64,000 nt of DNA. Origin: Ornithinimicrobium humiphilum (GTDB taxonomy: Bacteria; Actinomycetota; Actinomycetes; Actinomycetales; Dermatophilaceae). The stretch lies in assembly GCF_006716885.1 (NCBI RefSeq), contig NZ_VFPU01000001.1, forward strand, positions 1,054,001 through 1,118,000. The letters run 5' to 3'. The translations under genes were made by a program, and so were the position numbers. Shown one piece after another: positions 38,571 to 51,611 of the stretch (positions are counted from its first letter, which is position 1; each line of letters starts with the position of its first letter). The notes under the pieces were generated by a model. It saw only the letters and a program-made list of their open reading frames with translations. It searched no databases and had not been told where the DNA came from.

Positions 38571-39347
38571 ATGACCACCAGCACCGCGACGATCGACCTC
38601 AACGCCGACCTGGGCGAGGGCCTGGGCAGCTGGTCGATGGGCGACGACCTGGCCCTGCTCGACATCGTCACCAGCGCCAACGTGGCCTGCGCCTTCCACG
38701 CCGGCGACCCCTCGATCATGCGGACGGTGACGTCGGCCGCGGCCGAGCGCGGCGTGGCGATCGGGGCCCACGTGGCCTACCGCGACCTGCACGGCTTCGG
38801 GCGTCGCTTCATCGACATGGAGCCGGAGGCGCTGCGCGACGAGGTGCTCTACCAGATCGGCGCCCTGGAGACCTTCGCCCAGCGGGCCGGCACGACTGTC
38901 GCCTACTGCAAGCCGCACGGCGCCCTCTACAACACCATCGCCCAGCACCCCGAGCAGGCAGGGGCCGTCGCCGAGGCGCTGCGGGAGTTCCGCCCCGGCC
39001 TGCCGGTGCTCGGGCTGCCCGGCTCGGTCTGGCTCGAGGCGGCGGCCGCCGCCGGGCTGACCCCGGTGGGCGAGGCCTTCGCCGACCGCGTCTACACCCC
39101 CGAGGGCTCGCTGGTCTCGCGCCGCGAGGGCGGCTCGGTCCTGCACGACGCGCAGGTCATCTCGCAGCGCTGCGTCTCGATGGCCACGGGCCAGGGGATC
39201 GAAGACCACCGGGGCGGGACCCTCGTGCTCGAGGCCCGCTCGATCTGCGTCCACGGCGACACCCCAGGGGCCGTCGAGATCGCCCGCGCGGTGCGGGACG
39301 CGCTGGATGCCGCCGGCGTCACGGTGCGGCCGTTCGCCACGGCCTGA
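38571..39347 (+). CDS. pxpA: 5-oxoprolinase subunit A (LamB/YcsF family)
   Basis: The 258-residue protein has the LamB/YcsF signatures: DLNADLGEGLGSW at the start, VTSANVACAFHAGDP, GAHVAYRDLHGFGRR, CKPHGALYN, and EARSICVHGDTPGAVEIA near the end. It acts with PxpBC to hydrolyse 5-oxoproline to glutamate using ATP. It has an AAGGAG site before the ATG and is divergently transcribed from the rest of the cluster across 84 bp. The first C6 hairpin unit starts right after its stop and may end its transcript. Confidence 0.94.
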   Translation: MTTSTATIDLNADLGEGLGSWSMGDDLALLDIVTSANVACAFHAGDPSIMRTVTSAAAERGVAIGAHVAYRDLHGFGRRFIDMEPEALRDEVLYQIGALETFAQRAGTTVAYCKPHGALYNTIAQHPEQAGAVAEALREFRPGLPVLGLPGSVWLEAAAAAGLTPVGEAFADRVYTPEGSLVSRREGGSVLHDAQVISQRCVSMATGQGIEDHRGGTLVLEARSICVHGDTPGAVEIARAVRDALDAAGVTVRPFATA

Positions 39348-39352
39348 GAACG

Positions 39353-39458
39353 TGTGGCGCACGTCACAGCAACGGCGTGTAACGAATGCGGACCCTCGAG
39401 CGATCTATCCCGTGACCGCGTTGCTATCCGGACCCCCCGAGCGGATAGCAACGCGGTC
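39353..39458 (+). ncRNA. CRP-box/C6-hairpin unit 1
   Basis: The order is a CRP/GlxR-like palindrome TGTGG-N6-TCACA (39353-39368), 11 nt, the conserved octamer TAACGAAT (39380-39387), 26 nt, and a perfect 17-bp stem (39414-39430 with 39442-39458) closing the 11-nt loop GACCCCCCGAG. TCTCTGC follows. It looks like a small RNA or terminator unit with its own promoter; the type is inferred. It could also be the pxpA terminator. Confidence 0.6.
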
Positions 39459-39537
39459 TCTGCATGTCCCGGGAGGGCCCGGGCGAGCGTGCCCGACAGC
39501 TAACTCCCAAGGCGGGCCGGACCGGCCCGTTCCCCGC

Positions 39538-39643
39538 TGTGACGCACCTCACGCTACCGGCTGGTAACGAATCGCCCCCCTCGAGCGATGTACCTGGTGA
39601 CCGCGTTGCCATCCGGACCCCCCGAGCGGATGGCAACGCGGTC
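39538..39643 (+). ncRNA. CRP-box/C6-hairpin unit 2
   Basis: Same order and spacing: TGTGA-N6-TCACG (39538-39553), 11 nt, TAACGAAT (39565-39572), 26 nt, stem 39599-39615 with 39627-39643, identical loop. One stem pair differs from units 1 and 3 (T-A becomes C-G), a compensatory change that keeps the stem perfect. Confidence 0.65.
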
Positions 39644-39708
39644 TCTGCGTGTCCGGGCAGCCCCTTGCCTGGGCGGGTATGCCGTGTCGCGGCGCCCTTG
39701 CGGTGCCA

Positions 39709-39813
39709 CGTGACGCACGTCACACTTCTTCCGTGTAACGAATCCGTGCGCCCGACGATCTATCCCGTGACCGCGTTGCTATCCGGACCCCCCGAGCGGA
39801 TAGCAACGCGGTC
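39709..39813 (+). ncRNA. CRP-box/C6-hairpin unit 3
   Basis: CGTGA-N6-TCACA (39709-39724), 11 nt, TAACGAAT (39736-39743), 25 nt, stem 39769-39785 with 39797-39813, identical loop. It is followed after about 45 nt by the -10-like TAGGCT of the antiporter gene. The spacers between units differ in sequence, so only the box, octamer and hairpin are conserved. Confidence 0.65.
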
Positions 39814-39871
39814 TCTGCGTTCCCGAGGCGCCACACGGGGCGCTGCAGAGCCAGGGTTCTAGGCTTCGCGC

Positions 39872-41461
39872 GTGGACGTGCTCGGACTTCTCATCGCCCT
39901 CATGCTCGGCACCATCGCGATGGTCAGCGTCGGGGAGCGGCTCCGGCTCCCGTGGCCGGCGCTGATGGTGCTCCTCGCGATGCTCGTCGGCCTGGTGCCC
40001 GCCTGGCGCGAGATCTCCATCGATCCGCACCTGATCCTGCCGCTCTTCCTCCCGCCGCTGCTCTACGCCACCGCCCAGCGCACGTCGTGGGCGCTCTTCC
40101 GGCACCGGTGGCGCGCGGTCGTGGGGCTGGCGCTCATCCTCACCGCCGTCACCATCGCCACGGTGGCGGGCACCGTCGCGGCCATCGTCCCGGGGGTCAC
40201 GCTCGCCGCGGCCATCGCGATCGGTGCGGCGGTCGCGCCGCCCGACCCGGTCGCGGTCGAGGCCGTCGCCGGGCCGGTCGGCATCCCGCGACGGCTGACC
40301 GCGACCCTGCAGAGCGAGGGCCTGTTCAACGACGCCGTCGCGATCGTCGTCTTCACCGCGGCCGTGTCCGCCACGCAGACCGACCGGCCCTTCGGCCTCG
40401 ACATCGTGGGCGAGTTCCTGCTCGGCCTCGTGCTGGCCGTCGCGATCGGCCTCGCCGCCGCCTGGGGCGCGAGCTGGCTCGGCGACCACGTCGGCGCCCC
40501 GGCCGGCCGCAACGCGATCACGCTCGTGCTGCCGTTCGCCGTCTACGTGCTCGCCGAGGAGGTGCACGCCTCCGGCGTCGTCGCGGTCGTGGTGACCGCC
40601 GTCCAGATGGCGAGCATGCGCGGCGAGGACGAGGTGGAGGAACGGCTCACCGGCAAGGCCTTCTGGGACGTCGTGGAGCTGCTGGTCACCGGCGTCGCCT
40701 TCGGCCTCGTGGGCATCGAGGTCTACCACGTGGTCGTCGAGGCCGGGGACGAGCTGACCGGCATGCTCGGCCGTGCGCTGGTCGTCAGCCTCGTCGTCAT
40801 CGGCACCCGCGCCCTGTGGATGGCCGGGGTCTGGCTGGCGCGGCGCAGGTCGACCGACGAGAGCCTGCCCGTCCGCACCTGGAAGGAGGCGGTGCTGCTC
40901 ACCTGGAGCGGCATGCGCGGCCTCGCCACCCTTGCCCTGGCGCTCGCGATCCCCACCGTCGCCGCCGACGGCACCCCGATCGCGATCCGGGACGAGCTGC
41001 TCGTCATCGCGGCCGCCGTCGTGGTGGCGACGCTGGTGCTGCCCGCCTTCACCCTGCCGTGGCTGGTGCGCGCCCTCGCCCTGGCCGACGACCACGGCGC
41101 CGAGCGTCGTGCCGAGCTCCAGCTGGCCCGCCGGGCCAGCCGCGCCGCGGTCGCCTCGCTGCGGGAGCGCGAGGGGGACGTGCCCGAGGAGATCCTGGCC
41201 CGGGTCGAGGAGTCGCTGCGCCACCTCGACGAGGTGCTCGCCGGCGAGGCGCCCGAGGAGCACGTCGAGCGGGTGCGCGAGCTCAGCCGACTGCGCGCCG
41301 TCGCCAACGACGTGCGCCGTCAGGCGTTGGTGGCCGCGCGCGCCGAGGTGCTGCGCGCCCGGCAGGAGCCCGGGGTGGACCCGGAGGTGGCCGACCGGGT
41401 GCTGCGCGAGCTCGACCTGCGCACCCCGCCCGGTCCGCTGCAGTGGACCCAGGGGCACTGA
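39872..41461 (+). CDS. Na+/H+ antiporter (CPA1 / NhaP type)
   Basis: The 529-residue protein has about twelve membrane helices with the CPA1 ion-binding region GAAVAPPDPVAVEAV (the Asp of the PPDP segment) and LQSEGLFNDAVAIVVF (the ND pair), and TWSGMRGLATLALALAIP near helix 11. A soluble C-terminal region of about 110 residues, rich in Arg/Glu and probably helical, follows. TAGGCT (39860-39865) ends 6 nt before the GTG, indicating a leaderless transcript. It probably exports Na+ or K+ in exchange for protons. Confidence 0.9.
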   Translation: MDVLGLLIALMLGTIAMVSVGERLRLPWPALMVLLAMLVGLVPAWREISIDPHLILPLFLPPLLYATAQRTSWALFRHRWRAVVGLALILTAVTIATVAGTVAAIVPGVTLAAAIAIGAAVAPPDPVAVEAVAGPVGIPRRLTATLQSEGLFNDAVAIVVFTAAVSATQTDRPFGLDIVGEFLLGLVLAVAIGLAAAWGASWLGDHVGAPAGRNAITLVLPFAVYVLAEEVHASGVVAVVVTAVQMASMRGEDEVEERLTGKAFWDVVELLVTGVAFGLVGIEVYHVVVEAGDELTGMLGRALVVSLVVIGTRALWMAGVWLARRRSTDESLPVRTWKEAVLLTWSGMRGLATLALALAIPTVAADGTPIAIRDELLVIAAAVVVATLVLPAFTLPWLVRALALADDHGAERRAELQLARRASRAAVASLREREGDVPEEILARVEESLRHLDEVLAGEAPEEHVERVRELSRLRAVANDVRRQALVAARAEVLRARQEPGVDPEVADRVLRELDLRTPPGPLQWTQGH

Positions 41462-50862: not shown

Positions 50863-51012
50863 ATGCCCAAGGAGATCAAGCCCGGCACCATCGGCGGCGC
50901 GAGCACCGGCGACGACGGCGGCCAGACGGGCGACGGCAAGGGTGGCTACCTGTCCGGGCAGGGTGGTGACCCGGGCGGCACGACCGACACGACCGACGGC
51001 GGGTCCGAGTGA
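50863..51012 (+). CDS. 49-residue Gly/Asp/Thr-rich peptide upstream of the sigma factor
   Basis: A short peptide begins MPKEIKPGTIGGASTGDDGG and ends GGTTDTTDGGSE. It is rich in Gly (about one third), Asp and Thr, has no Cys and no membrane segment, and is not a known family to me. A good ribosome binding site (GGGAGAGGGG) precedes the ATG. The stop overlaps the sigma-factor GTG (GTGA), so the two are translationally coupled, which argues strongly that it is real. It could be a substrate of the CHAT protease-like protein, a secreted signal or a structural peptide. Confidence 0.7.
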   Translation: MPKEIKPGTIGGASTGDDGGQTGDGKGGYLSGQGGDPGGTTDTTDGGSE

Positions 51013-51611
51013 CCGGAGGCCCCGGGACCGAGGCCGGCACCGCCCGGCCCTCGCTGGCGCAGCGTGCCGGCGAGCGCTTCGCCGACTACCGCGCCGGCCG
51101 CCTGGAGGCGATGGGCGAGCTCGTCGAGCTGCTCACGCCCATGCTCTGGCAGGTCGCGCGCTCCCACGGCTGCGCGGCCCACGCCGCGGAGGACGCCGTG
51201 CAGGAGGTCTGGCTGCGGCTGGTCGACCACGCCGACGACGTGCGCGACCCGCGCGCCGTGCTGGGCTGGCTCGTCACCGCGGTCAAGCGTGAGGCCTGGC
51301 GCGACGGCCGGGCCGCGCGCCGCGACAACTACGACGAGAGCGGCACCGTCGACCCGGGCGAGACCGCCGAGGATCCCGAGACGCTGGCCATCCTCACCGA
51401 GCGGCAGCGCACCCTGTGGGCGGCCGTGTCCGACCTTCCGGAGCGCTGCCGGGTGCTCCTGCGGCTGGTGGCCTTCGTCGACCGCCCCGACTACGACCAG
51501 GTCTCGACGGCGCTCGGTATGCCGCGGGGCAGCATCGGCCCCACGCGCGGCCGGTGCCTCGACAAGCTGCGGCGCTCCCTCGCCGCCGACCCACGATGGG
51601 TGGACGCATGA
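51009..51611 (+). CDS. ECF-type RNA polymerase sigma factor
   Basis: The 200-residue protein has a sigma-2 region (ELVELLTPMLWQVARSHGCAAHAAEDAVQEVWLRLVDHADDVRDPRAVLGWLVTAVKREAWRDGR) and a sigma-4 region (LPERCRVLLRLVAFVDRPDYDQVSTALGMPRGSIGPTRGRCLDKLRRSL), with no sigma-3, as in ECF factors. The GPTRGRCLDKLR ending of sigma-4 is distinctive. There is no classical anti-sigma gene; the next gene product may fill that role, although it has no membrane helix. Both gene junctions overlap by 4 nt. It probably drives its own operon. Confidence 0.9.
   Translation: MTGGPGTEAGTARPSLAQRAGERFADYRAGRLEAMGELVELLTPMLWQVARSHGCAAHAAEDAVQEVWLRLVDHADDVRDPRAVLGWLVTAVKREAWRDGRAARRDNYDESGTVDPGETAEDPETLAILTERQRTLWAAVSDLPERCRVLLRLVAFVDRPDYDQVSTALGMPRGSIGPTRGRCLDKLRRSLAADPRWVDA

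Follow-up and report, generated by a model that had tools for sequence, protein, structure and literature searches.

Predicted small RNA genes with SigD-type promoters, CRP-like boxes and F6-like hairpins in tandem between pxpA and an antiporter gene of Ornithinimicrobium humiphilum

Among described actinobacterial RNAs, the closest to the locus presented here is F6 (SfdS, ncRv10243; RF01791), a short RNA with a single long 5' hairpin and a C-rich loop, GACCCCC(C)GA. The available text of PMC8557902 places the mycobacterial gene between fadA2 and fadE5 under SigF control and gives RNA lengths of 102 nt and, after processing, 58 nt. As described in the available part of PMC8583896, M. smegmatis F6 has the SigD consensus GTAACG in place of the SigF site found in M. 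tuberculosis, and an 8-nt loop seed represses rpfE2 via its leader in the former species. The open-access papers listed on F6 deal with mycobacteria, apart from one each on Rhodococcus and Gordonia. The 6C RNA (RF01066) is likewise an actinobacterial hairpin RNA with consecutive C residues in its loop, and its model contains two stems. On the promoter side, the accessible portion of PMC6338062 gives GTAACA/G at -35 and GAT at -10 for SigD of C. glutamicum, with cell-envelope genes as its protein-coding targets, while the accessible portion of PMC9205884 names hrdB and shbA as the only targets of ShbA, its counterpart in S. coelicolor.

The stretch of DNA analysed here (the window) spans 64,000 nt of O. 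humiphilum. Within it, a 524-nt gap separates the stop of a pxpA-like gene (39347) from the start of an antiporter gene (39872) and contains three units, whose parts are as follows.

38571..39347, + strand: pxpA-like gene (LamB/YcsF family; PF03746, 316.8 bits), upstream of the array
39353..39368, + strand: CRP-like box of unit 1, TGTGGCGCACGTCACA, centre 18 bp before GTAACG
39379..39404, + strand: SigD/ShbA-type promoter of unit 1, GTAACG-N16-CGAT, with CGAT at 39401-39404 (consensus from the accessible portion of PMC6338062)
39414..39458, + strand: predicted sRNA hairpin of unit 1, 17 bp, arms 39414-39430 and 39442-39458, loop 39431-39441 (models R1 and R2)
39538..39553, + strand: CRP-like box of unit 2, TGTGACGCACCTCACG
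39564..39589, + strand: SigD/ShbA-type promoter of unit 2, GTAACG-N16-CGAT, with CGAT at 39586-39589
39599..39643, + strand: predicted sRNA hairpin of unit 2, arms 39599-39615 and 39627-39643, loop 39616-39626; one compensatory pair relative to units 1 and 3
39709..39724, + strand: CRP-like box of unit 3, CGTGACGCACGTCACA, centre 18 bp before GTAACG
39735..39759, + strand: SigD/ShbA-type promoter of unit 3, GTAACG-N15-CGAT, with CGAT at 39756-39759
39769..39813, + strand: predicted sRNA hairpin of unit 3, identical in sequence to unit 1, arms 39769-39785 and 39797-39813, loop 39786-39796
39860..39865, + strand: TAGGCT, by inspection a possible -10 of its own for a leaderless antiporter gene (GTG at 39872)
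39872..41461, + strand: Na+/H+ exchanger family (antiporter) gene (PF00999, 135.6 bits), downstream of the array

Each unit is ordered as a CRP-like palindrome, 10 nt, GTAACGAAT, CGAT and a perfect 17-bp hairpin with the loop GACCCCCCGAG, and the conserved block also includes TCTGC following the stem and GTGACC both ahead of the stem and inside it. The three copies of GTAACGAAT start at 39379, 39564 and 39735; from start to start, the units are 185 and 170 nt apart. A repeat finder delimits 123 nt per unit, with 82% and 64% identity to unit 1 and the third copy offset by a 1-nt gap. Comparison of the units reveals near-identical hairpins, but the promoter spacers and the sequence between units diverge. 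The initial annotation had already described the three ordered units in the gap, the perfect stems around GACCCCCCGAG and the unconserved intervening sequence, and all of this was found as described. Its palindromes are likewise present in all three units, each one mismatch from TGTGA-N6-TCACA, although unit 1 reads GTGG instead of the GTGA it had reported. No Rho-independent (U-run) terminator was found at the array. Judged by their parts, all three units appear to be complete sRNA genes.

The GTAACGAAT octamer, which the initial annotation had correctly seen three times without recognizing what it was, is by its sequence the -35 part of a promoter of the ECF sigma-D (SigD/ShbA) type. All three units, and a fourth copy elsewhere in the genome, carry GTAACA/G at -35 and GAT at -10; 9 nt lie between CGAT and the hairpin, which places the hairpin start close to where the RNA is expected to begin. 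Inspection of the 3.4-Mb genome with GTAACR-N16/17-CGAT reveals five matches, against none for the reversed control; unit 3, with its 15-nt spacer, lies outside these five. They comprise units 1 and 2, the fourth copy, a match within a long frame that has coding-like composition on the other strand (L154) and an ambiguous match (L156). The retrieved pieces that carry the main sigma gene and the sigD gene showed no match to a looser SigD pattern.

The genome encodes one clear SigD/ShbA protein, which scores 198.1 bits to the ShbA model NF007230, below the curated cut-off of 209, with the next best protein at 57.8; ten of the 20 sigma-like proteins were also named with NCBIfam. Its gene adjoins groES-groEL and an IMPDH-family gene, neighbours that we take to be those of M. 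tuberculosis sigD as well. The locus thus resembles the SigD (C. glutamicum, mycobacteria) and ShbA (Streptomyces) regulons in its GTAACA/G...GAT promoter and in the position of the sigma gene by groES-groEL. It differs in that the targets given for C. glutamicum and S. coelicolor in the available descriptions are protein-coding, whereas here the predicted target is an sRNA. The window also holds a separate ECF sigma factor gene (51009-51608, + strand; 66.5 bits to TIGR02937), for which no named NCBIfam subfamily scores above its cut-off.

Each hairpin is far more stable than expected for its composition, with z-scores of -7.2, -5.9 and -7.3 for units 1-3 and 0 of 200 shuffles as stable in each case. 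Among ten hairpins of the genus (nine distinct), all 153 cells are paired and 7 of the 17 pairs have changed on both sides. Across 46 non-mycobacterial hairpins, 96% of 782 cells are paired, 15 of the 17 pairs have changed on both sides, and the covariation score reaches 0.648, compared with 0.217 for shuffled and at most 0.143 for slid alignments. Given covariation this strong, the stem is kept as a structure. The loop is the most constant part of the unit and is invariant except for its count of five or six C (five in many relatives), an invariance that arises partly by construction, since the collecting patterns required GACCCCC and GAGC. A coding reading was considered and rejected: a loop of 10 or 11 nt among relatives breaks any frame, and the stem changes are compensatory. 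Beyond the stem, GTCC follows within 20 nt in 23 of 60 units, versus 9, 10 and 11 of 60 in three stretches further downstream. It often appears as CAYGTCC and is perhaps part of the RNA 3' tail.

The fourth copy was found with R1, a covariance model built from ten hairpins, and lies between thyA and rnj (RNase J) at G000:C1:2440045-2440093 on the minus strand, complete with CRP box, SigD-type promoter and hairpin. A DNA search of 19 genomes recovered a single unit from each of seven further genus members, with thyA adjacent in 7/7 and rnj also in 6/7. Of the 31 genus genomes, R1 reported 15, of which 14 have a real copy (G022 was rejected at 36.3 bits with no C-loop and no promoter); thyA and rnj both lie within the flank in 13 of these 14 and thyA alone in one. 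A pattern scan of genome contigs, which specified GTAACR and the loop with its closing pairs and left CGAT free, returned 66 stretches from genera that include Kribbella, Kineococcus, Kineosporia, Catenulispora, Flexivirga, Arsenicicoccus, Intrasporangium and Terrabacter, and from a Propionicimonas MAG. CGAT stands at the right distance in 59 of the 66; the other seven read CTGTTA (six Catenulispora-type units) or CGTT (one unit). RNase J is encoded in 49 of these stretches, thymidylate synthase in 21 and either in 55, and dapA sits between the sRNA and rnj in both loci checked (L090, L256). The unit in a record labelled Streptomyces sp. SID13031 (L103 4852-4937) is almost the same as those of Kribbella, and the record may be misnamed. 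A single pattern match in a viral contig, without a stem and inside a reading frame, was set aside as a chance match.

Genomes usually have one copy: no other retrieved locus contains more than one unit, and a second promoter-bearing copy elsewhere was found in two order-sample genomes (G166, G123). These counts exclude two order-sample reports without a promoter (G119 and G129; 29.3 and 32.9 bits), second weak matches in G019, G030, G150 and G079, and matches on the opposite strand of a hairpin already counted. The gene at thyA, upstream of (dapA-)rnj, is probably the ancestral single gene, and the best reading of the pxpA-antiporter copy is that it was triplicated in tandem in this genome. 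The initial annotation was right that the three units are real modules but had missed that the same box-promoter-hairpin unit recurs as a single copy in many relatives, as the search of related genomes revealed.

Presence of the sRNA and of SigD/ShbA was compared across genomes. Within the genus, SigD/ShbA exceeds 180 bits in eight of 31 genomes (next best 99.8 bits), and the GTAAC-type sRNA is present in exactly those eight and in 0 of the other 23. Seventeen genus genomes have neither SigD nor the sRNA. The six remaining SigD-less genomes keep the hairpin and the CRP box with a different core promoter, which reads (T/C)G(G/A)TATGGTTT(A/C)TTCAATC in five of them and TGGTATGGTTTATCCAATG in the sixth (G021). 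Candidates for this core promoter are an extended -10 and a promoter of SigB/F-like type. Viewed at the loci themselves (L025, L027, L028, L029, L031, L032), a conserved TATGGTTT-(A/C)T(T/C)CAAT block occupies the place of the core promoter.

Among 149 genomes of the order, model R2 reports the sRNA in 32, with a GTAAC-type promoter in 30 (one TTAACG, one with CGAA), SigD/ShbA scores at least 190 bits in 32, and both occur together in 29. These are counts of R2 hits; R1 alone adds G017, G138, G148 and G176, which have no promoter, as well as G043, G131 and G161. The exceptions are one genome of 700 contigs with the sRNA and no SigD detected (G122) and three with SigD/ShbA and no detected sRNA (G013, G046, G080). 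Fisher tests give 1.3e-7 for the genus and 2e-26 for the order, values that do not correct for common descent. R2 hits occur in 46 of 296 genomes sampled across the class, and 27 of the 46 fall in a single genus whose genomes are large (5.8-11 Mb; probably Streptomyces). The 16 of these 27 that were opened have the hairpin upstream of RNase J behind a TTGCG...TAG-type promoter, and the link to SigD fails in this genus because its promoter is of a different type. The loci concerned (L249, L253, L256-L261, L263, L265-L268, L270-L272) display a well-conserved GTGTCCG-ATTGCG...TTCATCTAG promoter with no GTAAC element.

CRP-like boxes accompany all four copies in this genome, each centred 18 bp from GTAACG. 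When 87 distinct GTAAC-type units, those of mycobacteria among them, were compared, 37 proved to have an upstream palindrome with at most two mismatches to TGTGA-N6-TCACA, against 2, 0, 1, 0, 1 and 2 for six control palindromes in the same units. The box centre lies 18-19 bp from GTAAC in 24 of the 37, 28-29 bp in 11 and elsewhere in 2. The two distances are one helical turn apart, as would be predicted for contact between CRP and RNA polymerase; with an RNA start ~7 nt after CGAT, the boxes would be centred close to -50 and -60. Of 65 units from the named scan, 46 lack a box at 18/19 or 28/29 bp, among them those of Kribbella, Kineococcus and Catenulispora, and 19 have one, so that CRP control is not general.

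Comparison with Rfam makes F6 the best match for all three units, at 31.1, 29.7 and 27.4 bits (E 0.0025-0.02), below the gathering score of 46. F6 is also reported in four of seven genus loci (27.9-31.9 bits), the three others being SigD-less, and in five of ten wider loci (27.7-31.9 bits), with 0 of these 17 relatives' loci at the gathering score. Within a class sample of 197 genomes, F6 itself occurs in 15, of which 14 belong to one family, taken to be Mycobacteriaceae. Seventeen F6 loci were opened: GTAACG stands at the -35 place in 12 (seven with CGAT), as in M. smegmatis according to the available part of PMC8583896, while four have GGTTA...GGGTA as for SigF and one has neither. Models without mycobacterial sequences recover 13 of the 17 at E <0.05 and miss four (E is rough, for 52 kb); R1 finds 11 (best 5.2e-6) and R2 finds 7 (best 2.2e-7).

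The likeness to F6 extends to the single long 5' hairpin, the C-rich loop and, as predicted for the units, a short RNA. In contrast, the units close their loop with CCGG...GAGCGG instead of CUGACCCCCGACC, carry a CRP box and stand in three tandem copies. They lie at thyA/dapA-rnj or between pxpA and the antiporter gene, whereas F6 loci are elsewhere, with neither RNase J nor ThyA in their 1.5-kb flanks. We therefore call the units F6-like and not members of RF01791: their Rfam scores are below the cut-off, although independent models link them to F6. Searches of the open-access literature for an sRNA at dapA/rnj/thyX in Streptomyces, or for GlxR with SigD and a small RNA, found no paper on this RNA.

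Taken together, these comparisons make it likely, in our judgment, that the units encode F6-like trans-acting sRNAs under SigD and CRP control, which act by pairing through their C-rich loop and have been triplicated locally. RNA polymerase with SigD/ShbA would start a few nucleotides after CGAT, so that the RNA would open with the 17-bp hairpin exposing the GACCCCC(C)GAG loop, and the predicted product is a short trans-acting RNA of about 50-60 nt. A CRP-family protein, 18 bp upstream of the -35 element, would tune the promoter, either up or down. The loop would most likely pair with G-rich stretches in mRNA leaders, by analogy with the published F6-rpfE2 pair of M. smegmatis, and the tandem triplication would most simply raise dosage. 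That each unit has kept its promoter and the same loop, although the surrounding sequence has drifted, suggests use of all three. The earlier proposal of three CRP-linked small RNA genes is well supported by genome comparison.

With regard to possible targets, the genome contains 44 occurrences of the loop complement CGGGGGGTC (four being the sRNA genes themselves) and 33 of the reversed control, which is not a clear enrichment; 30 of the 44 were inspected. One of them, a perfect 9-nt CGGGGGGTC, falls within the leader of mraZ, 68-80 nt ahead of plausible GTG start codons (L192 1501-1509; G000:C1:1382437-1382445) and just ahead of the repeats AAAGTGGAGTAAAGTGGGG, and mraZ, at the head of the division operon, is a candidate target. 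The single rpf-domain gene found in the genome has no CGGGGGGTC match upstream.

Other readings of the array were weighed against the same observations. The units might instead form a stack of CRP/SigD promoters whose terminator or attenuator hairpins regulate the downstream antiporter in cis, much as the initial annotation offered in its second proposal. All three units do point at the antiporter, the last stem ends 58 nt ahead of its GTG, and the unit in relatives points at rnj or dapA. However, with the hairpin so close to the predicted 5' end (9 nt from CGAT), no leader remains for an alternative fold, the unit precedes different genes (antiporter, rnj, dapA), its loop is the most constant part, and the U-run expected of a terminator was not found. 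By inspection, TAnnnT also lies 6-8 nt before the start codon at the antiporter and at rnj in the genus, as in leaderless genes with a -10 of their own. We consider the cis reading unlikely and find no support for the attenuator proposal.

Two further readings carry still less weight. Six C in the loop and weak Rfam matches of 27, 21.4 and 21 bits recall 6C RNA, a likeness that the initial annotation had raised. These scores are far from the cut-off of 47 and F6 scores higher on all three units, though it too stays below its gathering score; many relatives have five C, and the units show one C-loop hairpin where the 6C model has two stems. No conserved stem fills the place of the second in the alignment of the units, and folds and covariation give one stem only. 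That the units are 6C RNAs is accordingly most improbable. Perfect inverted repeats present in three tandem copies and one elsewhere could also suggest mobile or selfish repeats (REP/MITE-like), or DNA-level protein sites with promoter-like ends by chance. Such elements would not be expected to occur usually once per genome and mostly at one conserved locus (the 55 of 66 stretches noted above) or to have arms that covary around a constant loop, and the phage collection yielded no match to the unit; we regard this explanation as very unlikely.

The favoured reading, F6-like sRNAs under SigD and CRP control, has a wider counterpart towards which we lean with some reserve. In it, an ancient sRNA shared across the actinobacterial class would have its home at thyA-dapA-rnj, with F6 as its mycobacterial branch, and would be a main, perhaps the most conserved, target of SigD/ShbA, often under joint CRP control. 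In lineages without SigD any longer, the sRNA would have been lost as well or would have retained its CRP box and loop under a new core promoter, and the four genes of this genome would have arisen by amplification. Such a history would suggest an explanation for the F6 promoter split between the SigD type of M. smegmatis and SigF of M. tuberculosis described in the available part of PMC8583896, in that the SigD type is widespread and probably ancestral. A conserved sRNA is linked here with a named sigma factor, and in many lineages also with CRP, in loci where Rfam reports nothing at its gathering score, and the SigD-less genomes offer a natural experiment in which the sigma factor was lost, the promoter swapped and the RNA kept.
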